Positions 15,201 to 47,565 of a stretch of 64,000 bases of DNA are shown one piece after another (the first letter of the stretch is position 1; each line of letters begins with the position of its first letter). The DNA comes from Deltaproteobacteria bacterium (GTDB taxonomy: Bacteria; Myxococcota_A; UBA9160; UBA6930): NCBI GenBank assembly GCA_028817435.1, contig JAPPPQ010000008.1:1-64000 (forward strand), read 5' to 3'. The notes beneath the pieces were generated by a model that saw nothing but the letters and a program-made list of their open reading frames with translations, had not been told where the DNA came from and did no database searches. A program made the translations under genes and the position numbers.

Positions 15201-18044
15201 CAGCGCACCGTGGGAGACCTGGTGCTGGGCTTCCTCGTGACGGGCTTCGAATTCCCGCCGCCCGAGGGGGAAGAGCGCTTCGCGACCACTTCATCCGCCG
15301 GAGAGACGGACTACCGCGTGGTCCCCAGCGACTTCGTCGTGACCTCCGGCCGCGACGGGCAACTTTCCGGCACGCTGCGCATTCCCGCGGGCGAGAGCAG
15401 CGCGCAGGTGGAAGTGCGGATGCTGGACGACGAAGCATGGGAGCGGCCCGAGGTGCTCGGGATTGAACTCACAGAGGTGGCCGATTCCGGTGGCAACTTC
15501 GTCGAGATTGCCAGCTTCTCCCGGAACTTCGCGCTGGCGATCATCGTCGACACCGACACGCTCTCGGCTTCGGTCAGCACGGTGATTCCGCCGGACAACG
15601 CCGAGCGCCGCTGCCGGGATTACTGCGAGGGACAGGATGCAGTGTTCCGGGTGCAGTTGACGGGGGGCACGCCGGGGCAGATCACCGAAGCCCACGCTTC
15701 CATCTATTACGAGCTCTCGGGCAGCGCAACCGGCTTTGTCGAAGAAGGCGCAGAGGGCGCGCTGGATTACACCGAGCCCGATGATGTGCAGGCGCAGAGC
15801 AGCGGCGCGCGGCGTGGCGAGCTGGTGATTCCCCCCGGCGAGATCAGCGGCGAAATCCGCATTCCAATTATCAACGACGATACGCCGGAGCCGGCGGAGA
15901 CCATCACCGTCACCCTGATGGCTACTCCGACTCCCGGCGGCGGCACTGTGAATCTGCTTCCGCCCACCTCGGCCACGGCCGTAATTGGCGAGAGCGACAA
16001 CACCCCGGTGACCCTCGTGGCGAGCGGGCCGGAGGAATTGCTGCTGGAAGGCGAGGAGGCGGTGTTCACCATCGCCATCAGCCAGGCGGATATTGACGCC
16101 GATCGCCTGCCCTCCACCGATGTCCGGGTCTTCTGGCGCATTGACTGCGATCCCTCAAATCCCAATCCCGACACCGACACCGAACCCGAATGCGCCGATT
16201 TCGCCCAGGTCCGTGGCGAGGTGCTCCTGACGCGCAGCGAAGTTTCCGCAGAGGTCACCATCTCGATCGTCGAGGACAACCGCCCCGAACCGGCGGAGCA
16301 CTTCACGCTGCTGCTCGATTCATTCCAGACCGCCTTCGGCGATGTGGCGCTGGCCGATGTTGTGCCGCCGGCCTCGGGAGAAACCAGCCACGCGCGCGCG
16401 ATGATTGCCACCAGCGAAAACCCGCAGCAGATCACGCGCCGCTCGGAGCGGACGCAGGCCACGACGACGGTGCTGGACCGCTCCTTCGCGGAAGTGGCGA
16501 ACATCGCCATCAACACGCGCTTCACCCAGGGCGCAGCGGGGGCGCGCACCGGGCTGCGCATTGCGGGGCGGGAGCTGATTGCCGCGCCCACCGCCGAAGA
16601 GGCCACCGAAAGCCTGGTGGAAGAGGCCACCGCTCCCAAATACAGCGCAGCCAGCGCAGAGCTGGGCCTGGCGCTCTTCGGCGCCGCGGGAATCGGCGCG
16701 GCGGGGGAAACAAAGGACGCCCTGGATCCCTTCGGCGGGCTTTCTGCGGGCATTGCAGGCGACCGCAACATGAGCGAGCCCTTCGACTTCCCGAGCACCC
16801 AGCAGTTCCTGAACGGCAGCGGCTTCAACATGAACGCCGAGGGCTGGAACGGCAAGGGCGGCATTACGCTGTGGGGATCGGGGGCGGCGGTGACCATGCA
16901 GGGCAAGCCGAAGCTCGACGGCGGCGTGCTGGATTACACCGGCGCAAACCAGGCCATGGTGATCGGCGCAGAGCGCTGGATTGGCGGCAACCTGCTCACC
17001 GGAATGGCGGTCAGCTACAACCTCAGCGCCGTGGATTTCAAGGACGCCGCGGACGGATCCAGCGCCAACGCGGGCCGCGTGGTGCGCAACATGATCCTGC
17101 TGCACCCCTACGCCTCCTGGTGGCCCAACCTGCGCACCAATATGTGGCTGGTGCAGGGCTACGGCAGCGGCACCATGACGGTGACGGAGAAGTATACGGT
17201 GGAAGGAACCGAGCGCGAGCGCGAGGCGGAAACCAGCGCCAGCCTGATGCTGGCCTCCTTTGGGCTGAAGCGGCTCTACCAATTGCGCGACCGCAACGAC
17301 ATCGCAATTACCTTCGAGACCACGCGGGTTCAGAGCGAGTTTGCCGAGACGCGCTTTGACGACGGCGTGCTGCTGCGCAGTTCGGACAGCGAGAGCAACT
17401 TTGTCAGCACCGGCATTGAGGGGAGCCACTACCTGAACCTGCGCGGCGGGCGCAGCATGCGGCTCTACGCCTCGGGCAAGGCGCACGCCAGGGTGCGCGG
17501 CACACTGGGCGCAGAAGAGGCTTTTAGTTACGAGCTCGGCTTCGGCACCGAGTTCGCATCGCAAAAGCTCGGCGTGCGTCTGTGGTTTGACGGCGGTGCC
17601 AAGCAGAGTTCCGGAAACTCGGCGCAGCGCTTCTCCGTCTCCGGCACCTACGACCGCGGCAATGACCAGCGCGGGCTCGCGCTCTCTCTCAACACCGCGC
17701 TGACCGGCCTGCGCAAGGTGGCGGAAGAGGTGCAGGCCCTGAAGATCAGCGGCGCGCGCGCGCGCGAAAACTCCATCAGCAGCGAAACTTGGGATCCGGG
17801 GCAGACCCTCACCGGCGAGGTGAGCTACGGCGTGGCGCTGCCGCGCTTCGGCAGTGAAGCGCTGCTCTCGCCCTACGGGCGCTTCGATCTGGGCCTGGAA
17901 AAGCGCAACTTCAGCGCGGGCCTGCGCTTCGAGGCCGGCAGCGGATTGGAACTGCGCCTGGAAGGCATCATGAAGCAACCGCTCGGGGATGAGGACGCGC
18001 TGCCCGAATTCGATCTGATGCTGCACGGCGATCTGCGCTTCTGA
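3..18044 (+). CDS. Giant Calx-beta-like repeat protein with C-terminal outer-membrane beta-barrel (5' end outside window)
   Basis: The open frame runs from the first bases of the window, so the true start lies upstream; about 6013 residues are visible. The first ~5450 residues are tandem units of roughly 100-125 residues (perhaps 45, rough estimate), with a recurring pattern: acidic EGG/EGD, AxFTVTxxG, DYxI, GxLTIxAG, DDxLxExxETxxVTL, then a short acidic linker. This resembles Calx-beta domains (known as Ca-binding beta-sandwiches in Na/Ca exchangers, integrins and bacterial adhesins). Several early units carry a Cys pair about 10-15 residues apart, suggesting disulphides. The last ~400 residues (from about base 16840) look like an autotransporter-type barrel: alternating aromatic/Gly strands and a terminal Phe. 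I infer a very large surface protein, probably an adhesin. No RTX nonapeptides are seen. Codon choice drifts from ATC-rich to ATT-rich for Ile after about base 4500. The repeat/barrel reading is confident; the biological role is not. Confidence 0.85.
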   Translation, partial: AVFTVTVSGAELTADATINFSVAGCAATTTNPGEDCTISPTGGKLTIRPNAGENTSTADITLTATDDLRNEAAETITVTLTGASTTGAIAVDTDNDAVTAVLMDNDALTARIDRKSGDTGAVAEGGTARFTVSLQGTGSVTLTQAVKVGFSVSGENGLAVDDYTITDTAQVDLNTGGDGGTLTIAAGSTLTGEIAIGVDTDMLLEAGETLTVTLSDPTTTGGGVALSSEDGAAAETVSITDGNSATVTIARKDGDGFTEGGSGGMGTAVFTITVTGAELTEDAIISFTAADCDASVPASAEPGDEDCTFSSPATVKPATGETTATGDITLTAEDDGFTEQTETITVVLTGASTTGQIAVSGTQSENRATADLKDNDALVLSIVRSTPPGGEIAEDTGIATFTVTVTGGTSTANVNVPFSVSGKDGDAIDENDYNISLPSPSSAPAASATGGTLVIASGQRSADITINASADDRIEGTETLLVALDNSADSAPAGGGGDNAPTLHATAANRSAEVDILDAENAKIEIARSDSDNFMEGGKDGAGTAEFTITITGGTPTQKVTVDFAVAPATAGDAITAGDYDITTPTGFSTTATSGEIEIAAGSTSATLTLSATDDTLSEKTETLEVTLSNAGTGNSASIAVNTEGGKDKATAQLADNDDLVLSIARQSPTGGAIDEDDAASRTAVFQVSTGSVIPTADLSVTFQVAGATTNNGLDEKDYDLTATTGVVLAGDSATAATGGTLTIAANSQSNTLSLSASADTLLEGDETLRVTLSSPTGGGGAAPTLSTTPSETYADVTITDEDSATVSIAREDDGASDKFMEGGMGADGTAVFTVTIAGAELTTNAEIPFSVDGCADVPTNPGEDCSADPTGTKLTINPAAGQTTTTGAITLTATEDAFNEPTETITVSLGNNPTTSGTLTRTDTTAQQSATADLTDNNAITITVGRKSGEAGAVQEGAKGRVTFQLSGGTPTAPITIRFRADSDRGATLADYSITPYDGGATGNTLALDALRDGDTRRMGTLTIAKGQTAADLEITAADDDLLESKERVRIRALTASTTAAGGAAKVTASNAYNGTGYQHRIEIEDNDAAVVTLARDGADTTFTEGPSMGDGALSPADRQAAFTVTIAGAELTANAKVPFTVAGCGSGEDCTYTPAGELTIMPVEDSTTATGAITLTATDDDISERTETITITLGAPSTDPAGRGAIALKTDSSGDPTEHTASAPLLDDDDLSIQIARKEGESAARKEGEDANFLVTITGGKPGANLNIPFAVGPAAADNGLGADDYDISTPSGLAATDTGGILTIAKGLTQGAIVLDLTDDDLLEGDETLRVTLSAPTGGGGANMLGSDTHADATITDAETAKVAIARKDMDGFTEGGAGPLGTAVFTVTVSGAELTADATINFSVAGCAATTTNPGEDCTISPTGGKLTIRPNAGENTATADITLTATDDTLSEPKETITITLTGASTTGAIAPDTSDGRDQATADLEDNDALSAGIARKTGESGDIDETGGVAKFTVSLTNPTNSMPTADVLLDFAVSGAVAAGDYDIGVSGGDAPAAADTGGTLRISAPDTSGEITITASHDTLLEDKEGFTITLTAVRGGGGTIGIASAKKSAGAAIVDDETASVSIARTDTADADSKFTEAPATEPEVDRTAEFTVTVSGAELTADAVVTLTVTGCDNGDTVPADCTLSGGVTDSLTVMPNTGSTSAQTVLTITAVDDELSEMTETISVTLTKVTSTGSIALSTTPEALKASAGLADDDPITASIARSGEDTAISENGGTATFQITLDHTPTAPLLLPFSIAGSGENPADGEDHDITAPTPTDADTDTTGTVRIESGDTTGSITITAQQDELLEGQESFAVQLGSGLNGGGGAAPSVSATSGEAVASISDDDRATLRISRTGGSGDIAEDGGAASFQVTLDKTPTAEWSVDFSVTGAVEAGDYDITAPTGIEATATSGTLTLASPAKSGQITITAVNDELLEGREVFSVELDSASGGGGETPAISTVAAEKAAGTGITDDDSANINIARKGGEQVNIAESGGVATFVVTISGAVPTQNVSVPFTVNPAATEPLSASDYDITTPAGTAADAEGGQLVIAAGSTSGEIVIGATDDNLLENTETASVTLSAPTGGGGAALNRLVPANNSFGIVSDETASATIARVDDADPADGGFIEGGADSAGSAVFRVSVSGAALSANAEVSFAIGGTGIVAGADGDYTLAAGSESPLRIPPATGTDPTTAHLDITVLARADGLNEPTETLRVTLTGASSKGSIAYQDVDADSGETTARSAEADITDNDPITATLSGSANATEGSEAVFTVTLTGGTHTAAVSVPWRVTVTGDGEGHAAAGDFTGNALPASSFDIAVGDSSGTFKVPIWDDGFMEPAETFTVSLGDSTGGGGGVIAPAGSPLTVTIAESVDTERTVLLSLKPDEVTEGATVAFKVKIDGHRPTGDIGVSWAVADGSGANPAVAADISGSPGGTLTFTPDNYETEQDFSVTTAQDSLLEAKETFHVVLTIDGSGTTGAVLPAGGITHPVRIADDDSVTVTIARDADADGFTEGGANTAKTASFTVTVSGAELTADASIPFSIGGSGVESSDYSATASPLAIARLASDATPADRTTLTGKISITAADDTLNEATETLTVTLGDAPATTGSIALGTAKQAAADLADNDPITVKIADESVDSDPDTGGVQVDEGETAVFRVTLDGAASGSAAAVTIPYTVGGDVSDNTGCSHMISDYTDSLGGTLMIPADTASAAISIATLQDQCREPDETLTVTLGSTPSVAAGGGVIARSGVSGEQSASVVIPANANTVRDFSAAVANAEATDRDSETDGVQVNEGDIVTFSVSLAGQAPDSGASVAWAISGVSNEDYEIQGTVASPLSFSTSNWETAQTISVIVNTDGLNEGVETLTLTLSGAMGGGVGGTGITLEGISAQAEITASDPIQYEISADQSVVEGASPGTKQQRFDIRISGAEHGSQGGEITLPFTVADASTAAAPGDYTISASPLTFAGAPETQQIVVTVKGDELSEQDETVVIALGAASTAESGAGVIAPPSADGATATLTIQDDESLSIRLARKEGESGDITEGDAPAKFSVTIVGGEPTANLVVNFRIAGSGSDPAEPEDLSASGTGVDFTAGTNAITGTLTIAAGETSGEISVSAETDDELEAPEDFDISLESATGGGGKTPVVETAHNSENLGITDAGANLSIARTTGASIAEGETATFRVTLDKQPPRDVTVYFLVSGVSSGDFELPSGAAGRELTIAGGETTVDLTITAADDAQNEAAETLTVILDRAATSIGAISVDSRRGQAEVVIAESDPITVSVAVADTTTDADSSTPGVQVLEGQTASFLIELTGATAGSAGIVTIPYTVGGTGITESDLNILRLSTGFELSPGITEVEFEIPIRLDGEAEPAETLEVTLGTITTGSGAGTVSLSSDAAMQKASVQIPANDAAKRTFHIAIVSTEDRDTLNDGVQVNEGDTATFRVSLSGDAPGSDATVKWAVTRYLEDEDWTGAARSGTLTFTPDNWDTPQDLVFDILDDNLNEGSETLEVILSEPAGGGGNTEFGDEEASLSILRSDPITFSLAAAETRIDESDGTATVLLRLTGAPGGSEGGLPEFPVNALIGADGGTATYDASTDFELGGDFRFGEPNPHDTSPDDVTGALETEVQLVINDDNLNEADETIVIEVGTPGTYYGGNGEFIAGTDTRVTLTIADDDDLSLSVSSNGEAEEGSAAVFTLRVQGTATTALQVEYTLSGSGITAEDVGTGSLTGRFDLTLAEAQAGEARRAISIADDDRPEGEETLTLTLGAITLTGGGSAQAPAPGNSAEVTIPANDGLTLNIARQDMDGFSEGAAGAAGNAVFRVSVQGGTPAESLRAPFALSGAGIERSDYEIESSGGVTPAMSGDRGELVITAGNTHGDITIRALDDDLGEAQETLRVELQTPSGGGGSIAPRLGVRRATAPIAANEDATATLSRVGTGNVDEGTAVTFRVTLDIANAAPVTLAWSAVMLMQANGPDGTNGRGASEFSSADGVDNSFSNHQGASGQVRISAGSSSADFTLTPAQDGLGEGEETLRVTLNTASVVSGGGAVAVDTTMNTAQATVNPSATIDRFVGVNVVSGTVSGMANEGDAITFEVYWGGRMLPTAAASVDWSISGVDDSDWSSSASQTITFPYPFEKAADGVSPAPHQFTITLAADELNEGAEDLLLTLSNASGGGPGGTSISGDYADAAVTINASDPLTYAVAAVPEEAGENDGEAAFRITLSGASGGSAGALRVPFVVGGASTAEDPADYTITTPGGAPVFTIPAGQNSGDISVSLADDALNEPDETIVVALDTDAIEKDAGAGEITAGDPTSATLTIADADPILVSIIAHTGSDNDPSMAGVQVNEGNIARFTVTLLRAAATRDVQVSYAVRDTENLTCGDYSDSTAAVRNFNCESGEKGILRIPVGMQRGTIAIQIVQDRLQEDNDEALVVILSDATSEGGEVEEACAYGACIAQVQIPANGASARDFMVSVNHLNTQEGRSVTFTVELMSHVRQSPPENATVEWEISGVEESDYSTASGSTLTFRPSNWNRPQRIRVAILDDDLNEAAETLLFSLVNPQGGGAGGTGVSIRMGSAQTVIAASDPITYSIQTEDQTVAEGASGSEMEVVFRVSLSGESEGNLTLPLGQGSGSTTNSDEVADYELSDSLVIAAGEREGDITVTVTGDDRHEANERLILQITAAEPDEDGGEFHPGRDSATLDITDDDPIVVSLQGPGNVSESSPNDQGRSTESFTVSLAGGAHTTPVTVPWRHEDISTEFLAGSRYRTDYRVAEGDMPLSFPVGTTELQIEIHIVDDARAEGEEQFELVLGTPRSVPGADITTDGSTPHLVTIAPSEEGAREVGVEVVGEAAEGGSAVFRISVTGNAHQDAVTVNYALTGNAILGEDYTGDAGTGGGATGVISIPPGEFSADIELAILEDDLSEMGEEIILTLSGQSGGESNGVTNLAEASQATAAIADSGLLIAALVREGRNDSLPLEDAVRVAEGDSIFFTVSLSSEGGAPQRTVGDLVLGFLVTGFEFPPPEGEERFATTSSAGETDYRVVPSDFVVTSGRDGQLSGTLRIPAGESSAQVEVRMLDDEAWERPEVLGIELTEVADSGGNFVEIASFSRNFALAIIVDTDTLSASVSTVIPPDNAERRCRDYCEGQDAVFRVQLTGGTPGQITEAHASIYYELSGSATGFVEEGAEGALDYTEPDDVQAQSSGARRGELVIPPGEISGEIRIPIINDDTPEPAETITVTLMATPTPGGGTVNLLPPTSATAVIGESDNTPVTLVASGPEELLLEGEEAVFTIAISQADIDADRLPSTDVRVFWRIDCDPSNPNPDTDTEPECADFAQVRGEVLLTRSEVSAEVTISIVEDNRPEPAEHFTLLLDSFQTAFGDVALADVVPPASGETSHARAMIATSENPQQITRRSERTQATTTVLDRSFAEVANIAINTRFTQGAAGARTGLRIAGRELIAAPTAEEATESLVEEATAPKYSAASAELGLALFGAAGIGAAGETKDALDPFGGLSAGIAGDRNMSEPFDFPSTQQFLNGSGFNMNAEGWNGKGGITLWGSGAAVTMQGKPKLDGGVLDYTGANQAMVIGAERWIGGNLLTGMAVSYNLSAVDFKDAADGSSANAGRVVRNMILLHPYASWWPNLRTNMWLVQGYGSGTMTVTEKYTVEGTEREREAETSASLMLASFGLKRLYQLRDRNDIAITFETTRVQSEFAETRFDDGVLLRSSDSESNFVSTGIEGSHYLNLRGGRSMRLYASGKAHARVRGTLGAEEAFSYELGFGTEFASQKLGVRLWFDGGAKQSSGNSAQRFSVSGTYDRGNDQRGLALSLNTALTGLRKVAEEVQALKISGARARENSISSETWDPGQTLTGEVSYGVALPRFGSEALLSPYGRFDLGLEKRNFSAGLRFEAGSGLELRLEGIMKQPLGDEDALPEFDLMLHGDLRF
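4159..4360 (+). repeat. Copy B of the near-identical internal duplication (copy A at 1-202)
   Basis: Partner of 1-202, same strand and same reading frame, about 4.16 kb apart. The spacing equals a block of roughly 1386 residues, so a multi-domain block may have been duplicated. Copy A is truncated by the window edge, so the full length of the identity cannot be measured here. Confidence 0.85.
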
Positions 18045-32137: not shown

Positions 32138-32196
32138 CCCGTGCCTTCCCGTGCCGCCTGCCGAGGCGCTTTGCATCAGACAGGGGAATGTGTATC

Positions 32197-33976
32197 ATGC
32201 CACATATGCTGATTCTGGCCGTCGCCAACCACCTGCACCACGATTCCGCTGCAGTCGTTGCCCAAGACTATCAGATTCTCTCCGCTGTGCAGACCGAACG
32301 CCTGACTCGCATGAAGGGCGATGGACAATGCGCGCACCAACCGACCATTACCGAGGCACTGCGCATTGCAGGCGCATCCATACGCGATGTGGATGCACTG
32401 CTCGTATCACCTTACTCCATATCGGTGCAATACTTTGATCCTTGGTCTTTGAAGCGCTCATTGAGCAACCACTTTGCAAGGCGAGTGCGCGGCAGGATCA
32501 GGTATGCATTTGCCCTGCCGAACGGCGCTCGTTATCGAGAAGTAGAATACAAAGTGAAATTCATTCCCGAACGCTTCCTAAAAGATCTCGGCCTGCGCGA
32601 GGACTGTGAATTCTTTTTCTATGAGCACCACTTCTCCCACGCACTCTCCGCGCTGTTTTTCACCGATTACGAGAACGCGCTGATCTACACCGCCGATGGA
32701 GGTGGCGATTTCCGGTATTACTCGGCTCACTATCTGAGCGGCGCAACACTGCGCAATGCTATCCCACCCCCCCCCCCCCCGGGGGAGATGGCGCTGGCTG
32801 CCCAAGGAGGGTGCCGCCTGCGTCGGCCTCGCTTACCGCTTCATGACGGAAGCACTTGGCTACACGCCAAATCGCCACGAGGGCAAGCTGACCGGACTCG
32901 CCGCCTACGGGGAGCCTGAAATTTATGACGAGATACGAGCGCCCTTCCGGGTGCTGGACGATGGGCAGATTACCTCGGAACTGCGCAGTGGCGAAGAACT
33001 GAAATCGCTGATTTTCTCCGCCACCCGCAGGACCACGCCGCAGAATGCCGCGGCTTCCGTGCAGAAGCTGCTGGAAGATCTGATTCTATCGTCCATCGGC
33101 GCCCACCTGCGGCACAGCAATGCCCGGCAGGTCGCGCTGGCTGGGGGCGTCTTCGCCAATGTGACACTGAACCGGCGCATTGCAGAGCTGCCCGGTGTGG
33201 AGCAGGTCTTCATCTTCCCCGGCATGGGCGATGAAGGGCTCGCCGTCGGCGGGCTCTACCAATATCTGCTCGAACGCGATGGCCTGCAGCACTGGCTCGC
33301 ACAACGCCGGCCGCTTGCGGATGTCTACTGGGGCGGTGCTTACGACGCCGAATTGCCCCGCGTTTTCGCCGATTCAGAAATTGAGCGGCTGCCCGGCACC
33401 GTGGCGGAGACGACGGCGCAGCTGCTGCAGGAAGGTGAAATCGTCGCGCTTTTCAACGGGCGCATGGAGTTCGGCCCGCGGGCACTGGGCGCGCGCAGCA
33501 TTCTGGCAAGTCCCGCGCAACAGAGCGTCAACAACACGCTGAACGCGCGCCTCGAACGCACCGAATTCATGCCTTTTGCGCCCTGCGTTCTGGAAGAAGA
33601 CGCCGACGAAGTTTTCGAGGTGACGGACGCGAACCGCTACGCCATGCGCTTCATGACCATCACCTGCCAAGTGCGCAAAGCATGGCGCGCGCGAATCCCC
33701 GCAGTAGTGCATGTGGACGGAACCGCGCGGCCGCAGATCGTGCGCGAGGAGTGGAATCCCCTCTATGCACAGATTCTGCGCTGCTTCAAACAGCGCAGCG
33801 GCCTGCCGGTGTTGGTGAACACCAGCTTCAACGCTCATGAGGAGCCCATCATCCACACACCTGCCGAGTGTCTGCGCGCACTGCGCGGTGGCCGCGTGGA
33901 CTATGTCGCCGCTGAATCCGGCGTGTATCGCCTGCGCCAGACCAAGCCGCGTGCTTCCCGGCGGAGCGCGCGGTGA
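32197..33976 (+). pseudogene. Carbamoyltransferase (NodU/CmcH/TobZ family), frame broken at a C14G5 tract
   Basis: Two overlapping frames encode one protein of about 592 residues once joined. Frame 1 (to the tract at 32767) has the family start LILAVANHLHHDSAAVV, FYEHHFSHALSALF and TADGGGDFRYYS. Frame 2 resumes after the tract with GLAYRFMTEALGY, NRHEGKLTGLAAYGE, GGVFANVTLNRR, GMGDEGLAVGGLY, FGPRALGARSIL and NTSFNAHEEPI. The family transfers carbamoyl from carbamoyl phosphate to hydroxyls (Nod factors, antibiotics, sugars). Removing one base, or adding two, joins the frames. The tract replaces a segment that normally holds a few residues. The start at 32197 follows AGGGGA by about 9 bases; ATGs at 32188 and 32206 are alternatives. 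Whether it is dead, phase-variable or mis-sequenced is open. Base composition in its first half is less GC-rich than the neighbours. Confidence 0.8.
32762..32786 (+). repeat. Homopolymer tract TCCCA-C14-G5-A inside the carbamoyltransferase
   Basis: T at 32762, CCC, A at 32766, fourteen C (32767-32780), five G (32781-32785), A at 32786. On the minus strand at 46427-46451 an almost identical sequence occurs (C15G4 instead of C14G5, same total of 19). The coding frame changes across it. Confidence 0.9.
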
Positions 33977-34055: not shown

Positions 34056-36935
34056 ATGGAAAACGACGAACCGCGGCTCAATGCCGCGCTCGCCACAGCG
34101 CTTGCGCCGTTTCTGCAGCGCGCGAATGTGAATTCGGAAGCGCTCAAAGCCTTTGCTGGCAGCGCCCGCAAGCCGGACATTCTGATTCACGAGCAGGGCG
34201 CTGCGCCGGTGGTAATTGAGACGGAGGTGCAGCCGGCGCGCAGTGTCGAGAGGGATGCGAAGGCGCGCCTTGGCGAAACCATGCGCGCTTCGGGGCGCGT
34301 GGTGGAATCGGCCATTGCCGTGCGCATTCCGCAACGCTACCGGGATTTGCCGCAGGCAAATATCATTTCCAATTTTCAGAATGACGACAAGCTGGAATAC
34401 GCGCTTTTCAACGGCGACGCCGAAGCGCCGGACCGCTTTCCCGGCGCAGGCTGGCTGGTGGGCAGCGTGCGCGACCTCGCTGCATTCTCGCGCGAAGCCT
34501 CGCTTCCCGAGCGCACCATTGAGCAGGCGACTGGCATTCTCGAGTCCGGCGTCATCCGCGCGGCCGGAAGGCTCAGCAGCAGCGCTTCCAAAGAGATTCT
34601 CGCAGAAATTGCGGCAGATCTGCATCAACCTGTCGGCGAGCAGACTTGGCGCATGGCAGCCACCATTATCGCAAACGCATTTACTTTTCATGAGAACCTC
34701 GCTGGTTTCCGGGGCATCACATCCCCCGATGGGCTGCGCCATGAGGCTTCGGGGGCGCTTTCCAAGACCGCCGTGCTAAAGGAGTGGCGCAAAATCCTGC
34801 GCATCAATTATTACCCGATCTTCAAAATCGCCCTCGACATTGCGGTGAAGCTTCAGGCGAGACTTGCCGCGGAGATATTTGACCTGTTGCAGGAAACGGC
34901 GAGTCAACTCGCGGCCACGGGCATTACCCGTTCGCACGATTTGTCGGGAACGGTATTTCAGCGTCTCATCAGCGACCGCAAGGCGCTGGCGACTTTCTAC
35001 ACGAGTCCGCCGGCAGCGACGCTGCTTTCTGTTTTGGCAATTCCCGAAGTGCCTGCGGGGCGCAATTGGGGCGATCCCAAAGCGCTCACCGAGTTTCGCA
35101 TGGCCGATTTCGCCTGCGGCACAGGCACGCTGTTGTCGACGGCTTATCAGCGGCTTATCCGCTTGCACGAAGCAGAGGGCGGCAACGCTGCGACTTGCCA
35201 CGCGGCAATGATGCAACAGGCGCTGACCGGCTGTGATGTGCTGCCGGCCTCGGTGCACCTCACCGCCTCCATGCTCGCCGCGGCCTTTCCCCGCGCGCGT
35301 TTTTACGGCACCCGGGTGCATACGCTGCCCTACGGCCGCACCGAGCAGGGCAAAATCATGCTGGGTTCGCTGGATTTGCTGGAGCGGCAATCCGTGGCGC
35401 TGCTCTTTGCCAGCGAAGCGCCGGTGCGGCAGACGGGAAGCGGCATGGTGCGGGAGAGCAGCAATTGCTCTGCCTTCAATTTTCCGTGGCGCACCTACGA
35501 TCTGGTAATCATGAATCCGCCTTTCACCCGCGCGACGAATCACGAGGGCGAGCGTTCGGATATTGCCAATCCGGCGGTATCCGCTTTTCAGCACGACGCC
35601 AAGACGCAGGGCGAAATGGGGAGCCGTCTCAACCAACTTGCCAGGAACACGGTTGCCCATGGCAACGCCGGTTTGGCGAGCCATTTTGTGGCGCTGGCCG
35701 ACAAGATGGTGAAGGACGGCGGGCACATAGCATTGGTGCTGCCGCTGGTTGCCCTGCAGGGCATTTCGTGGTCGCAGATTCGGGAGCTGTGGGAATCGCG
35801 CTACCGCGACATTCGAATTGTGACCATCGCGGGCGCGCGCGACAAAGAGCGCTCTTTTTCTGCGGATACGGGAATGGCGGAGATATTGATCGTGGCGGAG
35901 AAGGCGAACGGCGGGCCGAGGCGGGGGCGCAGCACTTTTATCAATTTGCGGCGCCAGCCCCGCGGCAACATCGAGGCGCTGGAAATTGCGCGGGCAGTGC
36001 AGAATGCGCCGCGCGCGCGCCGTCTTGAGGCCGGTCCGCAAGGCGGAACGGATTTGTATGCCGGAGAGCAGCATTTGGGACATATGCTCTCCGTGCCTTT
36101 CGGCGCGTGGTTCGCCGGTGGAGTGGAAGATGCCGAGGTCGCGCAGTGTGCGTGGCAACTCGCCCGCGGCAAGCTCTGGCTGCCGGGGCAGCCGAAATCG
36201 CAGGCGCTCGAGATTCCGATTGTGGCGCTCGGAGAGATTGCAGAGCGCGGACTTGTGGATCGGGACATCAACGGCGCGGGCGGGCGCGGTCCCTTTGACA
36301 TTGAGAAAATCGAGAAATCCGTCCCGACCCGTCCGACTCTCTGGGCGCACAATCACGAGAAAGAGCGCCGCCTCGTCGTCGCGCCCGACCGGGAAGCCCG
36401 GCCGAGAAAAGGGGCGGACGAGGATCATATTTCCCGCGTTTGGCAGGCGGCCAGCCGCGTCCATTTCAATCTCGATTTTCAGTTTACCTCGCAACCTCTG
36501 GGCGTCTGCCTCACCGAGCGCCCGGCGCTGGGCGGCCAGGCATGGCCCAATCTCTCCTTCCACAATCCGCTGCACGAGATTGCCTTTGTGTTGTGGGCGA
36601 ACTCCACTTTGGGCCTGCTGCTGCATTGGGGCCATGCGACGCGCCAACAGGCAGGCCGCGGGCGAATCACCATCAGCCGTGTTCCGGATCTGCCTACCTT
36701 GAATCTGCACAAGCTCCGCAAGCCCGCTCTGCAACGCTGTGAGAAAATTTTCGGCGACCTGCGCCAGCACGACTTCATGCCGATGCACATGGCCAACCGG
36801 GATTCCGCGCGCGAGGAATTGGACCGGCGCTTCCTCGGCGAGGTGCTGAAGCTGCCGCCGGGCATACTCGCGCCCCTCGGCGTGTTGCGCGGCAAGCTCT
36901 GCGGCGAGCCCTCTGTGCACGGCGGCCAGCGCTGA
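34056..36935 (+). CDS. Adenine-specific DNA methyltransferase with nuclease-like N-terminus (solitary restriction-modification-like enzyme)
   Basis: 959 residues. The central domain is a class I SAM methyltransferase: motif I DFACGTGTLL near residue 350 and motif IV MNPPFTR near residue 487, diagnostic of N6-adenine DNA methylation (gamma-type order). A ~330-residue C-terminal part may contain the DNA-recognition domain. The first ~80 residues hold KPDILI followed 13 residues later by IETE (D41, E55, E57), reminiscent of a PD-(D/E)xK nuclease core in which the usual Lys is Glu; cleavage activity is therefore uncertain. The layout resembles single-chain type IIG enzymes, but a solitary methylase or a phage-defence component are alternatives. 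It is flanked by direct repeat R2, and no separate specificity or restriction subunit is adjacent. Both suggest a mobile cassette. Confidence 0.82.
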   Translation: MENDEPRLNAALATALAPFLQRANVNSEALKAFAGSARKPDILIHEQGAAPVVIETEVQPARSVERDAKARLGETMRASGRVVESAIAVRIPQRYRDLPQANIISNFQNDDKLEYALFNGDAEAPDRFPGAGWLVGSVRDLAAFSREASLPERTIEQATGILESGVIRAAGRLSSSASKEILAEIAADLHQPVGEQTWRMAATIIANAFTFHENLAGFRGITSPDGLRHEASGALSKTAVLKEWRKILRINYYPIFKIALDIAVKLQARLAAEIFDLLQETASQLAATGITRSHDLSGTVFQRLISDRKALATFYTSPPAATLLSVLAIPEVPAGRNWGDPKALTEFRMADFACGTGTLLSTAYQRLIRLHEAEGGNAATCHAAMMQQALTGCDVLPASVHLTASMLAAAFPRARFYGTRVHTLPYGRTEQGKIMLGSLDLLERQSVALLFASEAPVRQTGSGMVRESSNCSAFNFPWRTYDLVIMNPPFTRATNHEGERSDIANPAVSAFQHDAKTQGEMGSRLNQLARNTVAHGNAGLASHFVALADKMVKDGGHIALVLPLVALQGISWSQIRELWESRYRDIRIVTIAGARDKERSFSADTGMAEILIVAEKANGGPRRGRSTFINLRRQPRGNIEALEIARAVQNAPRARRLEAGPQGGTDLYAGEQHLGHMLSVPFGAWFAGGVEDAEVAQCAWQLARGKLWLPGQPKSQALEIPIVALGEIAERGLVDRDINGAGGRGPFDIEKIEKSVPTRPTLWAHNHEKERRLVVAPDREARPRKGADEDHISRVWQAASRVHFNLDFQFTSQPLGVCLTERPALGGQAWPNLSFHNPLHEIAFVLWANSTLGLLLHWGHATRQQAGRGRITISRVPDLPTLNLHKLRKPALQRCEKIFGDLRQHDFMPMHMANRDSAREELDRRFLGEVLKLPPGILAPLGVLRGKLCGEPSVHGGQR

Positions 36936-40244: not shown

Positions 40245-42695
40245 GTGGCCCGCGGCTTCATCGTCCACCCGACCTACCGGGTGCGCGCAGGCGTCCCGGT
40301 GGTGCAGCTCTACGGACGGCTCGAAACCGGCGCGGCCTTTCTGGTCGAGGACGACCGCTTCCGCCCCTACTTCTTTGCCACCCGGGAAGGCGCGCGGGCG
40401 CTGCAAGGCGCGCGCGGCATCGAAATCGCAGAGACGGAGCTGCGCGACCTGCGCGGGCGCGGGCTGCTGCGCATCGAAACGCAAAAGCCGGCAGAGGTGC
40501 CGCCGCTGCGCGAGCGCATTGCTGCCGCGGGGGGCGAGGCCCTGGAAGCAGATCTGCGCTTCCCCTACCGCTTTTTGATTGACCGCGGCATTCGCGCCAC
40601 CTGCGAAATTGAAGGGCGCGGCGAACTGCGCCGGGACGAGATCAACCCGGACGGCATTGTGCACTTCCACAACCCCGCGCTCGCCCCCGGACCGGCGCGG
40701 GTGGCGCTGCGCACGCTCTCCCTTGATCTCGAGACCACCCCCGACGCCGGGCGCATTCTGGGCGCTGCCCTGGTGTGCGGCGGAGTGCAAGAGGTGCATC
40801 TGCTGGCAAAGCGCAAAGTGGCCGGCGCCATTGCGCACCCGAAGGAGCCGGGGCTGATTTTCAGCCTGCTGAAGCGCATCCGCAGCCTGGATCCGGATCT
40901 GATCGTCGGCTGGAATGTGATTGACTTCGACCTGCGCGTGCTCTTTGCGCGCTGCGACGCGCTGCGCATGGAGTGCAACCTGGGCCGCGCGCGGGATCGG
41001 CCCCGCATTCTGCAGCGCGAGGGCAGCTTCATGCGGCAGAGCCGCGCCGATGTGGCCGGGCGCATGGTGGTGGACGGCATTCCACTGGTGCGCGACGCGC
41101 TGCGGCTCCCCAATTACCGCCTGCAGACCGTGGCGCAGCGGCTGCTCGGCCGCGGCAAGAAGATTGCCGAAGACGCGCCCGATGCGGCGCAGGAAATTAT
41201 GCGCATGTGGCGCGAAGCGCCCGAGGCCCTGGCCGAATACAACCTGGAGGACGCGCGGCTGGCCCTGGAAATTCTCGAGCACGAGGGGCTGCTCAATCTG
41301 TGCGTGGAGCGCAGCCGCCTCTGCGGCATGCAGCTCGACCGGGTGGGCGCCAGCATTGCATCCTTTGACCTGCTCTACCTGCCCGAGCTGCGGCGGCGCG
41401 GAATTGTGGCGCCCTCGGTGGACGCCTCGCGCAAACAGGCGCATGTGCGGGGCGGCACGCTGCTCGATCCGCAGCCCGGACTGCACCGCCATGTGGCGGT
41501 GCTTGATTTCAAGAGCCTGTATCCCAGCCTGATCCGCACCTTTCACCTGGACCCCCTTGCCCGCGCCCGCGCCGCGCAGGCCAACGGCGCGAAAGACGCC
41601 ATTGCCGCGCCCAACGGCGCGCGCTTTTCGCGCGAGGATTCCATTCTGCCCGGCGTGCTCGAACGGCTGGCCCAGCGCCGTGAACAGGCGCGGGCGCGGG
41701 GCGACCGCCACGCCGATTACGCCATCAAGATTATGATGAATGCGCTGTTCGGCGTGCTGGGCGCAGGCGCCTGCCGCTTCTTCGATCCGCAAATTGCCAA
41801 CGCCATTACCGGCTTCGGCCAGCAGACGCTGCACTGGACCCGCGAGGCATTCGAGGCCGAAGAGGTTCCCGTCCTGTATGGCGACACCGACTCGGTTTTT
41901 GTGAAGCTCCCCGAGATTCAGGACGCCCGCGCGCTGCGTGCAGCCGCCGAGCGCCTGCGCCAGAGCGCACAGCAGACCGTGGCCGAGCGCATCCGCCGCG
42001 AATACCGGGTCGAGCCGCGTCTGGAGCTGGAGCTGGAGCGCATTTTCGAGCACTTTTTTCTGCCGCGCTTGCGCGGCGGCAGGGGCGGAAGCAAGAAGCG
42101 CTATGCGGGCTGGGAGGCGCGGGACGGCGGACGCCTGGTGGTGGTGGGATTGGAGGCCGTGCGCGGCGACTGGCCCGAGGCCGCCACCCGTTTGCAAGAG
42201 GGTATGTTGAAGCGCCTGTTCCAGGGCGTTGATCCGGCGGAGTTTGTGCGCGAATTGGTGGCTGCATTGCGGGCGGGCCAAATGGATTCCGAGCTGATCT
42301 ACACGAAGCGCGTGCGCAAGGGCGCGCTCTCGAACTACACGGCCAACGCGCCCCACATTCAGGCCGCGCGCAAGGCGGGCGCACGGGCGGGGAGCACGAT
42401 TCAATATCTCATTACCCACAGCGGCCCCGAGCCCGTGCTGCCCGGGCAAGCGCTGCCCGCCGGCATTGACCGCGCGCACTACATCGAAAAGGTGCTGCGC
42501 CCGGTGGCCGACAGCATTCTGCTCGAAATCGGCAGCAGTTTCGACCGCGTGCTCGGCGTCCCGCACCAGATTTCGCTGTTCGATCCGCAGCCGAAGGCGG
42601 CGCTGCGCGCCGATTCTCACTCTGCGGGCTTCGCCGGGACGAGCTCGAGCAGCGAGGCTTCGCCGGGAACGCCGATGCGCAGCGGAAAACCGTAG
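40245..42695 (+). CDS. polB: DNA polymerase II (family B)
   Basis: 816 residues from a GTG 10 bases after the glutaredoxin stop. An N-terminal domain is followed by the 3'-5' exonuclease (Exo I LSLDLETTP, Exo II region WNVIDFDLRVL, Exo III YNLEDARLALEI) and the polymerase with motif A DFKSLYPSLIRTF, motif B KIMMNALFGVLG and motif C YGDTDSVFV. E. coli Pol II is 783 residues, so this is full length. In enterobacteria it is SOS-regulated and acts in replication restart; no LexA box was looked up here. The 3' end overlaps the convergent phosphoesterase gene by 79 bases. Confidence 0.95.
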   Translation: MARGFIVHPTYRVRAGVPVVQLYGRLETGAAFLVEDDRFRPYFFATREGARALQGARGIEIAETELRDLRGRGLLRIETQKPAEVPPLRERIAAAGGEALEADLRFPYRFLIDRGIRATCEIEGRGELRRDEINPDGIVHFHNPALAPGPARVALRTLSLDLETTPDAGRILGAALVCGGVQEVHLLAKRKVAGAIAHPKEPGLIFSLLKRIRSLDPDLIVGWNVIDFDLRVLFARCDALRMECNLGRARDRPRILQREGSFMRQSRADVAGRMVVDGIPLVRDALRLPNYRLQTVAQRLLGRGKKIAEDAPDAAQEIMRMWREAPEALAEYNLEDARLALEILEHEGLLNLCVERSRLCGMQLDRVGASIASFDLLYLPELRRRGIVAPSVDASRKQAHVRGGTLLDPQPGLHRHVAVLDFKSLYPSLIRTFHLDPLARARAAQANGAKDAIAAPNGARFSREDSILPGVLERLAQRREQARARGDRHADYAIKIMMNALFGVLGAGACRFFDPQIANAITGFGQQTLHWTREAFEAEEVPVLYGDTDSVFVKLPEIQDARALRAAAERLRQSAQQTVAERIRREYRVEPRLELELERIFEHFFLPRLRGGRGGSKKRYAGWEARDGGRLVVVGLEAVRGDWPEAATRLQEGMLKRLFQGVDPAEFVRELVAALRAGQMDSELIYTKRVRKGALSNYTANAPHIQAARKAGARAGSTIQYLITHSGPEPVLPGQALPAGIDRAHYIEKVLRPVADSILLEIGSSFDRVLGVPHQISLFDPQPKAALRADSHSAGFAGTSSSSEASPGTPMRSGKP

Positions 42696-43978
42696 AAGCC
42701 CGTGCCCCGGTGCACATAGAGCCGGCTCGCGCCGTGGCCAAACAATCCGTGGTCGGGCCAGGGCGAGCGCGAGAGCACCGTCCAATTGAAGCCGAGGGAG
42801 ACCAGGCCGATTTGCCCGCCGTGGGTATGGCCGGAGAGCGCCAGATCCACTTCGTTTTTCGGGACATCGCGGAAGTGCATCGGATCGTGCAGCAGCAGCA
42901 ACCGCAAACGCCCGGCCTGCCGGGGAAAGCGCGCAAAGAGCGCGGCCAGCCGCTCGCTGCGGCCGCGGCGGTGAAAGTCTGCGCCGAGAATTTGCACGGG
43001 GCCAAGCGGCGTCCGGGCCTGCGCGGCGTCATCCACCAGCAGCGAAACGCCGCACTCCGCCAGCGCGGACTCCACTTCGTGCAACGCCTCGTGGTCGTGA
43101 TTGCCAAGGCAGGCGAAGCAGCGCCCCGGCGCATCGGCAAGCGGCGCCAGCGCCTGCGCCAGCGCACCGGGGGTGCCGTTGCCCTCCATAGTGAGAAAGT
43201 CGCCGGTGAGCAGCACCAGGTCGGGATTGTGGCCGAGGAGCTCCTCAATGCGCCGCCGCAAGCGGTGCAAAGGCTGCCAGGGGCCGAGATGCGGATCGGT
43301 AATCTGCACGATGCGCAGCGGACGCGCGGGAGAATCCCGCAGCGCTGCGGCAGCCCCGCGCGGCGCAACCCTCGCGCGCGCCCGCGCCCGCGCCGCCCTG
43401 CGCGGCCGGTGGCGGCGGCGCACAAGCGGCAGCCGGGTGAGCACCTCGGGCGTTGCGCCGCCGAGTTCAATGCGCACAATTTCTCGCCGCAGGCGCAGCG
43501 AGGTGGCGAGCGAGAGCGCGATTACGAGCGGCGGCAACAGGTCCAGCCAGCGCAGGGCGGACTGCGCGCCCGCTGCGCCGAGCAACTCGAACAGGCCCCA
43601 AAACAGCGCGCGCACAGCGAAGTAGGGAACGCACAGCGCGCCCAGCGCCACCAGCGCCATGCCCGGCAGGCTCAGCGCATAGCGGTAGAGCGGGCGGCGC
43701 AAGCGCGCGCGCACCAGCCCCGAGTGGTGCACACCCGCCGCCCCAAAAGCATACACAAACCCCCACCCCGCCAGCGGCCCAAGCAGCGTCTGCAAATGCT
43801 CCGCCAACAACAGCGCCGCCGGAAACGAGAGCAGCACCACCACCCCCGCAAACCCCGCATACACCCTCCCCCGCACCCGCCACGCATAGAGCGGCAACGC
43901 CGCACCAATCACCAGCGCAAGCGAGGGCAAAAGCCAACCAGGCGGCGCATGAAGACCCACGGGGGGGAGCATAGTCAA
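42617..43978 (-). CDS. Membrane-anchored metallophosphoesterase
   Basis: 453 residues. The first ~190 contain about four to five hydrophobic segments. After a very Arg/Ala-rich stretch (RRRHRPRRAARARARARVAP) comes a calcineurin-like phosphoesterase with all metal motifs: TDPHLG, LTGDFL, LGNHDHE, HDPMHF and GHTHGGQ. Similar proteins (YkuE/YaeI-like) act on phospholipids or nucleotides at the membrane; the substrate here is unknown. It begins at either of two nearby ATGs (43978 or 43972). It converges with polB and precedes, with a 46-base gap, the lower-GC island that ends in the opposite gene order. Confidence 0.9.
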   Translation of the reverse strand: MTMLPPVGLHAPPGWLLPSLALVIGAALPLYAWRVRGRVYAGFAGVVVLLSFPAALLLAEHLQTLLGPLAGWGFVYAFGAAGVHHSGLVRARLRRPLYRYALSLPGMALVALGALCVPYFAVRALFWGLFELLGAAGAQSALRWLDLLPPLVIALSLATSLRLRREIVRIELGGATPEVLTRLPLVRRRHRPRRAARARARARVAPRGAAAALRDSPARPLRIVQITDPHLGPWQPLHRLRRRIEELLGHNPDLVLLTGDFLTMEGNGTPGALAQALAPLADAPGRCFACLGNHDHEALHEVESALAECGVSLLVDDAAQARTPLGPVQILGADFHRRGRSERLAALFARFPRQAGRLRLLLLHDPMHFRDVPKNEVDLALSGHTHGGQIGLVSLGFNWTVLSRSPWPDHGLFGHGASRLYVHRGTGFYGFPLRIGVPGEASLLELVPAKPAE

Positions 43979-44024: not shown

Positions 44025-45419
44025 TCACATCCTCTGCGAGACCCTGTAGTAGATCAGCGCTGCGATAAAGAGCGAAAAGATAGACACCGCGGAAGGCCAC
44101 CTGAGGTCGTAGATAACGCTGGTGACATCAACCACGACCGAAATGCCACCCATCAAGGTGAATCCAAGTGCGAACTTATTCAGAAACTCGGACTTCTTCT
44201 GGTCAATAATTGTGATGATCCGATCGTAAACAACCCGCAGGGAATCGCTTTTCTCGTCAATGTGAGCGAATTTGTCTTCGGTTCCCCAGCGCTTTCCCAA
44301 ACGCTTCCAGATTTCGGTCTCTTGAGGATTGAGATGATTCCCGTAATCCAAAAATGCGCTCTTGAACAGAATGCCCTCTTCCAGCAGAACCACAATGTCC
44401 CGCGAAAAATCGTCAATACCCTTGTTCTCCTGGCTCTTTTTCCTGCGGAGCAGACCCGTCTTCTCCGAAATCCTATCCTTGCCCAAAGACACATTGCTGG
44501 TCATAAGAAACAGATCGTCCTCCAAATCCTCCGCAGCGGCGAAAAATGCATTCTGCATTTGAATCATCTCTGACAAGGTGGAAAAAGAACACCAAGCGCC
44601 TTCTTCGTCGGCACTCGAGAAAAGGGAAGCAGAATTTCCAGTCGAGACATAGATATGCGAATGTTCGTGCACGCTTTCCCTGTCCCTATGAAGATCCTCT
44701 TGGCTGGATGTGAAAATCAAATCACTGATGTTGTCACATGCCTCGGAAAGCGCTCTGGGATCTGAGAACTGCAGGCCGAAAACCCGGTGCACCCAGGTCA
44801 CTCCGGTGTCCTTCATCCGAATTTTCTCCGATGTGGGGCCCTTGATCAAATCCCCATCTTCGTGATCAGGCAGCGATGCCGCAGATTCCAACTGAACTCT
44901 CATGAGGTCGAATATCGGCCCAATCTCCTTGATGTTTCCCGCCAGAGCCTCAATGCCCTCGCGCAGGCCGTCCAGAGTCAACTGGCTGGCAGGCTTCCTG
45001 CTCAAATGGAAGTCTGCCCAAAATGTGGCATAGCCGAAATCGAAGAAATGAACCCGAATTTTCTGCAGAGAAACCTCTCCGATTTTCTCTGTGACACTCT
45101 CACCTGCCTGCTTCAAGAGTGTCTGTTTGATCTCTTCCAGGTAATCCTCATCCGTGATCAACGACTCCACCACATAGGGGGGCTTGATGGTCGTGCCCCT
45201 GCGGGTATCGGTGTCTCGGTCGAGACCACTCGTGCGCTGCCCGTCGGGGCAGCAGGCCCATTGCCACTTTCCGTCCCGGCCCAGATTCTTCTCCAATTCT
45301 GGGAAAAGCCGCTCCCTGCGCTTTTGGTCAATCAGCTTGCGGGGGTCCAGAAACAGATTGGTTCGGATCGGGCCGTTCAGAGCAAACCGAATGCGCACGT
45401 CTTCAGGAAGAACGAACAT
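44025..45419 (-). CDS. Unknown protein with two C-terminal transmembrane helices (CorA-like shape)
   Basis: 464 residues with no family I can name. The first ~400 residues are soluble, mixed alpha/beta then helical and strongly charged; the last ~55 hold two transmembrane helices (FALGFTLMGGISVVVDVTSVIY and AVSIFSLFIAALIYYRV) separated by a short polar turn, ending RVSQRM. A large cytosolic domain, a long charged helix leading into TM1 and a pair of terminal TMs match the outline of CorA-type channels, but the GMN signature is absent. AAGGAGATT lies 6-7 bases before the ATG, and the start overlaps the upstream MurL-like gene by 17 bases, so the two are co-translated. G+C is visibly lower than in neighbours, suggesting transfer. 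Confidence 0.75.
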   Translation of the reverse strand: MFVLPEDVRIRFALNGPIRTNLFLDPRKLIDQKRRERLFPELEKNLGRDGKWQWACCPDGQRTSGLDRDTDTRRGTTIKPPYVVESLITDEDYLEEIKQTLLKQAGESVTEKIGEVSLQKIRVHFFDFGYATFWADFHLSRKPASQLTLDGLREGIEALAGNIKEIGPIFDLMRVQLESAASLPDHEDGDLIKGPTSEKIRMKDTGVTWVHRVFGLQFSDPRALSEACDNISDLIFTSSQEDLHRDRESVHEHSHIYVSTGNSASLFSSADEEGAWCSFSTLSEMIQMQNAFFAAAEDLEDDLFLMTSNVSLGKDRISEKTGLLRRKKSQENKGIDDFSRDIVVLLEEGILFKSAFLDYGNHLNPQETEIWKRLGKRWGTEDKFAHIDEKSDSLRVVYDRIITIIDQKKSEFLNKFALGFTLMGGISVVVDVTSVIYDLRWPSAVSIFSLFIAALIYYRVSQRM

Positions 45420-46915
45420 TGAGAATCTCCTTGATGTAGCGCCTGGCGTCCTCGGCTGTTGACTGCAGCTTGGCGTCCAGCGCCGTTTTGAACCTTGCGG
45501 GCACCTCGCTCTCTTCGCTGTAAACGGTCAGATACTTTTCGAGCGCTTGACCCAATTGAAACCGCGTCTTCTCCCGGATATACATATCGAAGGCAGAACC
45601 GGTCAGCCCTTTTGCGATGCAAAGCTCAAACGCCAATTGGGTCTCCTGAGACTGGCCGATGCACTCGAAGGGAAGGCCCTCGGTGAATCCCAGCATGGCG
45701 CGGAATATGGGGACATTCCCCGGCACATCGGCCAAATTCTCGCCAAACATCGCTTCCACGCGCACGGGTTGCAGATAGGCCATGTAGTTGACCCACACAT
45801 AGAGACACTTGGGGCAGCGCTTGCACCAGGGCTTCTGGACATTGCAGGAGTGGGTTTGCGGGACAAATTCCTCGTGTTCCCGCAGCAAATTGAAGATCAT
45901 CACATCGTGGATGGATTTCAGAATGCTGTAATAATGGAAATCCGGCAGAAGATTATCTCGTATGTAACGATTGATGAGCTTCTCGGCTTCGAAGCTCTTT
46001 CCCCATTGATGATTAACATCCTCGCCCGTTCGGTTCCAGAATACTTGCCCCGTGTCGGCGCTCTTTTCATGCGCAAGGCAGATCTCGCTGATGTCATTCG
46101 CCATCACCACCGGAAGCGAGGCGAAGATGGAGCTGGGCGTCTCGGCAGCCGTCAACGTCTTGACTCGCGTGTCCGGGCCAAGCGCGAGGACCGGCGAATC
46201 CATGAAGTCGTCAAATATCCACTGGCGGTGCCGGCGTTCCGGGCTGCAGTGATTCAGCAGGCCCGTGATCTGTTCATGCTGGCGGCCCAGTTGCCCATAG
46301 ATGGAAGAGGCGTAGACCAGCGAATCATACGGCTGCCCGAGCGTTTCCAAGAGCTTGGCGGCGACCAGGCTGTCTTTGCCACCGCCGAAAAATGACAGGG
46401 CCTTTGGAGCGTTAATTCGGCGGCTTTCCCCGGGGGGGGGGGGGGGTGGGAGAAGAGGCAATCTTCATCTGGGGTCCGAAGTATCCCGGGTCATCGTTCT
46501 CAAAGCGCCACTGCGCCCAGACATTGCGAAATATCGCCGACCAAGTGCTCCAAAAGTCCTCGCCCACAAAGCGGGAATACTCCCCCCAGTCCACTACCTT
46601 GGGGCGCAAACTGCAGAGCCTGTTGATCTCAAAGGCCGCAATGTGGAAGTAGATGTTCTGCATCTGCTCTGCGCCGAAGCGCGCTTCCAGGGCGTTCAAA
46701 TCCACCGTATCGAACCAATAGGTCGTGGAAAACCGGTAGCCGTCAACGGAGAACAGCGCCGACAATTGGTGCTTTTGCGCCCGGATGTCTTCAAGCAGCA
46801 GGAGTTCGGACAAGTTCGCGCCCCGCCGGGAGGATTCCCGAATGGCCCGCTTTGTAGCAGCAATTTGTTTGCTTTGCAAAAAGGCTGGAAAATCTGAAAA
46901 ATTCAGCAATTTCAA
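45403..46915 (-). pseudogene. MurL-like PP-loop enzyme (UDP-MurNAc-L-Ala-L-Glu epimerase family), frame broken at a C15G4 tract
   Basis: Joined, about 505 residues. The N-terminal part (from 46915) has a small-molecule-binding look (YWFDTVDLNALEARFG, IYFHIAAFEINRL). After the tract, the second frame starts with ALSFFGGGKDSLVAAKLL, a PP-loop ATP-pyrophosphatase motif, and contains a Cys cluster WCKRCPKCLYVWVNY and FECIGQSQETQ. From memory these later motifs resemble MurL, which epimerises the terminal Glu of UDP-MurNAc-L-Ala-L-Glu after adenylation; QueC-like or other PP-loop enzymes are alternatives. No MurD-like partner is adjacent. One base fewer, or two more, in the tract would restore one frame. 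Lower G+C than the surroundings. Confidence 0.65.
46427..46451 (-). repeat. Homopolymer tract TCCCA-C15-G4-A inside the MurL-like gene
   Basis: On the plus strand: T, CCCC (46428-46431), fifteen G (46432-46446), T, GGG, A. On the coding strand it reads TCCCA, C15, G4, A. It differs from the tract at 32762-32786 by one position in 25 and has the same orientation relative to its gene. Confidence 0.9.
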
Positions 46916-46986
46916 TGATTTGCCGATTCGATAGACTCGGCGGGAAATTGGCGTGGTGCGGGGGGCTGCGCTGGGGGAGGCGGCAT

Positions 46987-47565
46987 ATGGCCAAGCTCTA
47001 TTTCCGCTATGGCGTGGTTGGCAGCGCCAAGACGCTCAATCTGCTCGCCGTGGCGCACAATTACGAGCAGCAGGGGAAGCGGGTGCTGGTGCTGAAGCCC
47101 GAGCTCGACACCCGCTTCGGGCGGGAGCTCGTCAGGTCCCGGGCCGGGCTGCGGCGCAACGCCGATATCCTCGTGAATGAGGCAACCGATCTCAATTTCG
47201 GGCGCTTCGAGGGCGTCTCCTGCGTGCTCGCCGATGAGGCGCAGTTTTTGCCGGTCCGGATCATTGACCAGTTGCGCGAGCTCACCTGGCGCTGCGACAT
47301 CCCGGCCATCTGCTACGGGCTGCGCACGGACTTCCGCACCCGCGCTTTCGAGGCTTCGCAGCGGCTGCTGGAGGTGGCGGATTCCATTGAAGAGATCAAA
47401 ATCAGTTGCAACTTCTGCAACGACAAGGCTGTCTTCAATCTCAAGCACCGCGGCGGTGTGGCCAGCGCCGACGGGCCGACCATAGAGCTCGGCGCGGAAG
47501 AGAAGTTTCTCCCCGCCTGCTGCCGGTGCTACCGGGAGCAGCTCGAGCCCGGGCTCAGGCCATGA
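46987..47565 (+). CDS. tdk: Thymidine kinase (type II)
   Basis: 192 residues. P-loop GVVGSAKT, the DEAQF motif, the lasso-type YGLRTDFRTRAFEAS loop and a four-Cys zinc site (CNFCNDK and CCRCY) are all present. It salvages thymidine to dTMP. The ATG giving MAKLYFRYG is chosen because GGGGGAGGCGGC lies just before it; upstream in-frame codons extend to 46915 and would overlap the MurL-like gene's start. It diverges from that gene and overlaps the ABC permease stop by 11 bases at its 3' end. Confidence 0.93.
   Translation: MAKLYFRYGVVGSAKTLNLLAVAHNYEQQGKRVLVLKPELDTRFGRELVRSRAGLRRNADILVNEATDLNFGRFEGVSCVLADEAQFLPVRIIDQLRELTWRCDIPAICYGLRTDFRTRAFEASQRLLEVADSIEEIKISCNFCNDKAVFNLKHRGGVASADGPTIELGAEEKFLPACCRCYREQLEPGLRP

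Follow-up and report, generated by a model that had tools for sequence, protein, structure and literature searches.

A rare MurL-related enzyme with links to the ergothioneine pathway, encoded beside an unclassified membrane protein in a low-G+C island

What do two overlapping genes of low G+C content do between the housekeeping genes of a deltaproteobacterium? The island lies within the 64,000 nucleotides of contig JAPPPQ010000008.1 that were analysed here (the window). The original prediction read it as a MurL-like PP-loop enzyme coupled to a CorA-shaped membrane protein, a layout known from several defence or toxin systems and also from a cell-wall-modification pair. Its description of the locus largely holds. 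The coordinates and the minus strand of both genes are right, GGGKDS and WCKRCPKC are found in the first gene, the second product has two terminal hydrophobic stretches at its C terminus, and the genes overlap by 17 bases, between the frame for a 352-aa C-terminal part of the first protein (45403-46461) and the 464-aa gene (44025-45419). Likewise, the G+C content of 44025-46915 is 0.540 against a median of 0.676 in 1-kb windows, and the minimum of the whole window falls here. The flanks are ordinary genes of housekeeping type; searched at the island, flanking direct repeats, tRNAs and Rfam RNAs were not found. Judged by its sequence, the first gene encodes an ATP-using enzyme, which we name TML and which belongs to a branch of the MurL family not described before; the second product is P0001. 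The features needed here are as follows.

32188-33976, NodU-type carbamoyltransferase in two frames, split at a C14G5 tract
42617-43978, calcineurin-like phosphoesterase, an ordinary gene flanking the pair
44025-45419, minus strand, P0001, 464 aa, of no recognised family, mostly a long soluble part, followed at the C terminus by two transmembrane segments
45403-46461, minus strand, C-terminal part of TML, 352 aa, with a PP-loop (QueC/MurL-like) ATP pyrophosphatase domain and C-terminal helices
45805-45846, minus strand, four-cysteine site C-x6-C-xx-C-xx-C (CNVQKPWCKRCPKC)
45991-46023, minus strand, GEDVNHQWGKS, diagnostic of MurL and TML, with G in TML and S or A in MurL
46369-46386, minus strand, GGGKDS P-loop, invariant in the TML clade
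46412-46915, minus strand, N-terminal domain of TML in another frame, 167 aa, 48.5% identical to the N-terminal part of the relative L041
46432-46446, run of 15 G on the plus strand (15 C on the coding strand), the site of the TML frame break
46915-47565, thymidine kinase, an ordinary gene flanking the pair

The pair is real, but its first gene, described as a single gene, is two frames in the assembly. The N-terminal and C-terminal parts of TML meet at the C15 run (46428-46446 is C4G15 on the plus strand), and 15 C put them out of frame. In the relatives, a single intact gene matches both halves (48.5% and 52% identity in the case of L041), and all full-length relatives are intact at the position of the tract. 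It falls in a variable linker, which in the relatives takes 40-48 residues from the N-terminal motif (WAQWR... or a variant) to GGGKDS. Because homology to the relatives starts near residue 32-41, the true start is probably inside the N-terminal frame and not at 46915. Runs of at least 12 C or G are common throughout the window genome, and many of the tracts have the form CnGm, with n+m mostly 19-20 and reaching C18G37. A second tract in the window, C14G5 at 32767-32785, splits a carbamoyltransferase gene of which each half matches carbamoyltransferase families; both window tracts interrupt otherwise intact genes. These observations suggest that the break in TML is an assembly error or homopolymer switching. 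With its frame interrupted, the window copy has only putative activity.

Relatives of TML were taken from one scan of GTDB genomes with a profile of the TML C-terminal part and seven MurL-like proteins, which gave at least 26 loci at 40-52% identity (TML, L041-L066) and at least 54 at about 26-33% identity (MurL). In an unrooted maximum-likelihood tree, a branch supported at 100/100 separates 61 MurL rows from the 34 rows of TML (the 26 loci, the window copy and, from the window's phylum, seven more, one of which duplicates L045). The clade spans six phyla: Pseudomonadota, Bacteroidota, Myxococcota, Cyanobacteriota, Acidobacteriota and Vulcanimicrobiota (Eremiobacterota). TML relatives from the window's phylum group with Nannocystis and Kofleriaceae, which makes Myxococcota the likely phylum of the window; the window copy is sister to L041, and the sister of L047 is L060, a contig that stops within its TML gene. 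Scans of viral contigs with the C-terminal part (P0002) and with profiles A1 and A4 gave nothing, and plasmids yielded no TML relatives.

The resemblance of the first gene to MurL, as originally predicted, is that of a PP-loop enzyme with shared motifs. MurL (NF041275) is homologous to TML over the whole length at about 22-30% identity, both carry GGGKDS, NHQW, the four cysteines and PFEC[VI]G, they have their fold in common, and the TML C-terminal part matches the NCBIfam MurL model at 3.9e-33. However, it is scarcely credible that TML is itself a MurL-type enzyme. At 114.6 bits that match is far below the cut-off of 700, TML forms its own clade, the motifs VWAQWRYEN, YSxSxYG, AAETP and KPWC are specific to TML, and the MurL insertion between SCN and WC is missing from it. 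Moreover, MurL is paired with MurD in L004, L009 and L040, whereas TML has no MurD2 neighbour and stands in a context of ergothioneine (egt) genes instead. The prediction had noted that a MurD-type partner is lacking at the locus, and none is present among the window genes; MurD2 is also absent from the listed called genes of the TML loci. Its suggestion of a cell-wall-modification pair is likewise not supported, since the TML loci show neither MurD2 nor, as a rule, mur or glycan genes; one Acidobacteriota locus (L058) does have mur and cell-division genes alongside. Caution is thus in order, and not every MurL-like protein should be annotated as a peptidoglycan enzyme. Within the MurL clade, four genes lie tail to tail with a gene for a WD40-repeat protein (L005, L006, L007 and L008, from Pseudonocardia plasmids and a genome of the window's own family), with no MurD annotated or seen beside them. 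One apparent phage match, MT836755.1 (L040), was rejected; it is an ordinary bacterial MurL-MurD contig with a translation-factor-like GTPase, and its label, Bacteriophage sp., is probably wrong.

The best solved fold for TML is that of QueC (PF06508), the preQ0 synthase. The structure model of the intact relative L041 (pLDDT 91.2) has the PP-loop fold of QueC, and its best PDB match in Foldseek is QueC 2pg3 (E 1.4e-5, TM 0.62 by target length). Both enzymes have a PP-loop and a cysteine site, but the zinc motif of QueC, C-x8-C-xx-C-xx-C (PMC13329287), is replaced in TML by the variant C-x6-C-xx-C-xx-C. TML further differs in its extra N-terminal domain, its C-terminal helices and its unrelated gene context, and its C-terminal part matched no Pfam family up to E 1, PF06508 included. 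QueC converts a carboxylate substrate in two ATP-dependent steps (PMC13329287). For MurL, which uses one ATP and forms AMP, adenylation of the alpha-carboxylate has been proposed, followed by epimerisation at the alpha-carbon (PMC8788868). By analogy with these two chemistries, TML may reasonably be expected to adenylate a carboxylate.

Where TML is found, ergothioneine genes are often close by. Of the 26 listed loci, 11 have an EgtB-type gene near TML and 10 have EgtD; the same search found neither gene at any of 54 MurL loci. Over whole genomes, EgtD scores above the cut-off in 25 of 26 TML genomes but in 7 of 24 MurL genomes. The Fisher p-values (7e-7 for locus linkage, 6e-7 for the presence of EgtD in the genome) ignore the kinship of loci and overstate independence, since TML loci share ancestry, and the second is also confounded by taxonomy, in which the control MurL genomes differ from the TML genomes. 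Most of the neighbours checked exceed the NCBIfam cut-offs for EgtB and EgtD, or in L052 that of the OvoA N-terminal model; the EgtB of L065 is just below its cut-off, in the gene order EgtC-EgtB-TML. TML follows EgtB-EgtD in L042 and L048, and two relatives from the window's phylum (L172 and L173) have a same-strand run of EgtD, an EgtB-like gene, TML, an ABC ATPase and an OpuAC/permease fusion. The EgtB/OvoA-like proteins of these runs (L172:8404-9888 and L173:8242-9561), which adjoin EgtD, fall far short of the EgtB cut-off and are also below those for OvoA and SenA, and possibly this sulfoxide synthase leads to another thiohistidine or a selenium product. No egt gene adjoins TML within the window; in the window genome, EgtD (409.9 bits) is on contig C48 and EgtB (556 bits) on contig C50, both away from the pair. 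Some TML loci have neither an egt nor a transporter gene nearby. The linkage of TML to the ergothioneine (thiohistidine) pathway is nevertheless well supported. Relative to the aerobic pathway (EgtA-E) and its OvoA/SenA relatives, TML stands in many genomes with EgtB, EgtD and EgtC or with OvoA-type genes, and we know of no described ergothioneine gene for a PP-loop enzyme of the TML type. A link between ergothioneine and MurL or any PP-loop enzyme was absent from the open-access literature searched, which is no proof of novelty; in a 2026 survey of the QueC family, MurL and ergothioneine both go unmentioned. Neighbourhood analysis had been put forward to decide between defence and the cell wall; the context that emerges is one of ergothioneine genes and speaks for neither. 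In one cyanobacterium (L052:3036-5450), an OvoA-type sulfoxide synthase is encoded directly beside EgtD.

Other neighbours of TML are varied. A betaine-type ABC transporter is encoded beside it in several loci, with a permease fused to an OpuAC domain as in EgtUV and OpuC-type betaine transporters. We considered these transporters as EgtU importers and rejected that reading, because their readable binding domains have Phe where pneumococcal EgtU has Gly244, a residue described as invariant in EgtU (PMC9732360). The neighbouring binding proteins are accordingly betaine-type, with ergothioneine binding only putative. In one or a few loci each, TML also has as neighbours genes for an FkbH-domain protein and a small carrier-like protein in L041, a sulfotransferase and an SbnA-type enzyme in L042, and a lysine/ornithine monooxygenase in L043. 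Radical SAM proteins (L046, L050, L054), P-type ATPases (L048, L050) and, in cyanobacteria, DUF427 proteins are encoded near TML as well.

The second protein was called unrecognised, and so it is: P0001 has no match in Pfam up to E 10, to a known channel or any other characterised family, and none in NCBIfam, PADLOC or PDB sequences. Its AlphaFold2 model, from a two-sequence alignment, has a pLDDT of 41, so the likeness to CorA stays an argument from shape. The single clear homologue (L047:7001-8344) is in an Eremiobacterota genome, with 20.7% identity over most of the length (BLAST, E 1e-6, small database) and 24% in a MAFFT alignment. Its gene starts at or within the 3' end of a TML gene, between betaine-type ABC genes. 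The co-occurrence that the original prediction made a test of the pair is thus seen once more, in a distant phylum. Single-sequence searches for P0001 in genome contigs, plasmids, phages, 80 genomes of the order and 379 of the phylum returned the window only; with profile A2, L047 was the only match in the 26 TML genomes, there was nothing else in the 379 phylum genomes, viral contigs gave no match, and weak partial matches appeared in Eremiobacterota. Nearly all TML loci lack P0001, the closest one listed (L041) among them. A rare protein beside a rare enzyme at two separate positions in the tree argues for a functional tie, although the recurrence comprises two cases and L047 was found through TML. 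We know of no described system of exactly this composition, in agreement with the prediction.

An Eremiobacterota membrane family (alignment A5, for which there is no Pfam model) resembles P0001 in part. Its C-terminal helical and membrane region aligns with that of P0001 (hhalign, 82%), and the two have the motif F[FY]D[FY]G in common. The alignment covers the C-terminal part and not the soluble part; the family has one membrane helix by eye, and a link of it to TML was not seen. Members with an FFDYG-type motif are L175, L177, L179-L182 and L186.

Taken together, the pair looks less like phage defence or cell-wall chemistry than like a step of antioxidant metabolism that has gone unrecognised. 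We infer that the most likely substrate of TML is ergothioneine or a compound close to it (hercynine, or an EgtB/OvoA-type sulfoxide). Adenylation of a carboxylate on this substrate would release pyrophosphate and AMP, and TML would then modify the compound, for instance through amide formation, conjugation or an epimerisation. P0001, which is rare and membrane-anchored, would probably be a partner of TML in certain lineages and might move, hold or sense the TML product. This account, adenylation and then tailoring of ergothioneine or a relative with a membrane partner in some lineages, is the best explanation and on balance a probable one; tailoring is favoured because the biosynthetic genes around TML are varied and because TML is rare in genomes with EgtD. 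The main rival, unlikely in our view yet live, is that TML supplies the final step missing from ergothioneine synthesis, replacing the C-S lyase EgtE by an ATP-driven reaction that needs no PLP. Adenylation of the cysteine carboxylate of hercynylcysteine sulfoxide would render the alpha-proton acidic, an effect also proposed for MurL, and beta-elimination would yield the thiohistidine, a route to which we give the same modest chance. It is attractive because TML occupies the place expected of EgtE in L065, L042, L048 and L172/L173, and because MurL activates the carbon next to a carboxylate, alpha-carbon epimerisation after carboxylate activation having been proposed for it (PMC8788868). However, TML seems rare and EgtD common, so that most producers manage without TML; the betaine-transporter, FkbH, SbnA and monooxygenase neighbours are left unexplained; and a class V aminotransferase-like gene, possibly EgtE-like, adjoins TML in L048.

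Two further readings concern the island itself. The frame break at the C15 tract and a G+C content far from the genome norm would fit a decaying, horizontally acquired fragment in which TML is broken, P0001 is an unrelated passenger and the pair has no function here. We consider this decidedly unlikely, since every TML motif is kept, the break amounts to one homopolymer of a kind that recurs in another window gene and across the genome, and the pair is seen again in L047. More unlikely still is an anti-phage defence or toxin system, in which the enzyme would make a signal or modify a target and the membrane protein would be the effector. A low-G+C two-gene island that is patchy over phyla has that appearance, a TIR protein adjoins TML in L046, a methyltransferase-like gene lies about 9 kb from the pair in the window, and QueC-family enzymes act in qatABCD and type IV CBASS (PMC13279940, PMC11996544). 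Against this, the pair has no PADLOC match above noise, only two of 76 neighbour proteins of the relatives match PADLOC (a generic ABC ATPase and a TIR protein), viral contigs and plasmids have no relatives, P0001 is usually missing beside TML, and egt genes are often present there. The defence or toxin layout of the original prediction is not borne out by these searches.

Ergothioneine is an antioxidant that is widely made and imported. To our knowledge, little is known of what bacteria do with it afterwards, and outside actinobacteria the C-S lyase often has no gene assigned to it. A conserved ATP-using enzyme beside EgtB and EgtD in several phyla is a concrete, testable candidate for an additional reaction or for the making of a new thiohistidine. 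It is quite possible, if just short of probable, that TML is an undescribed ATP-dependent thiohistidine enzyme, either a PLP-free C-S lyase or the entry to a new ergothioneine-derived metabolite, coupled in two distant lineages to a new kind of membrane protein.

Three other proteins came to attention. In Thiodictyon (L046:2453-5557), a large TIR-like protein is encoded just upstream of TML, a single case; it is probably the ThsB-like PADLOC match. Within the window, 34056-36935 encodes a 959-aa DNA-methyltransferase-like protein of slightly lower G+C, with no Pfam match and weak PADLOC matches to type II and type I methyltransferases and PglX. Finally, an open frame of about 6013 residues runs from the window edge (3-18044) and has repeat-like, adhesin-type sequence.
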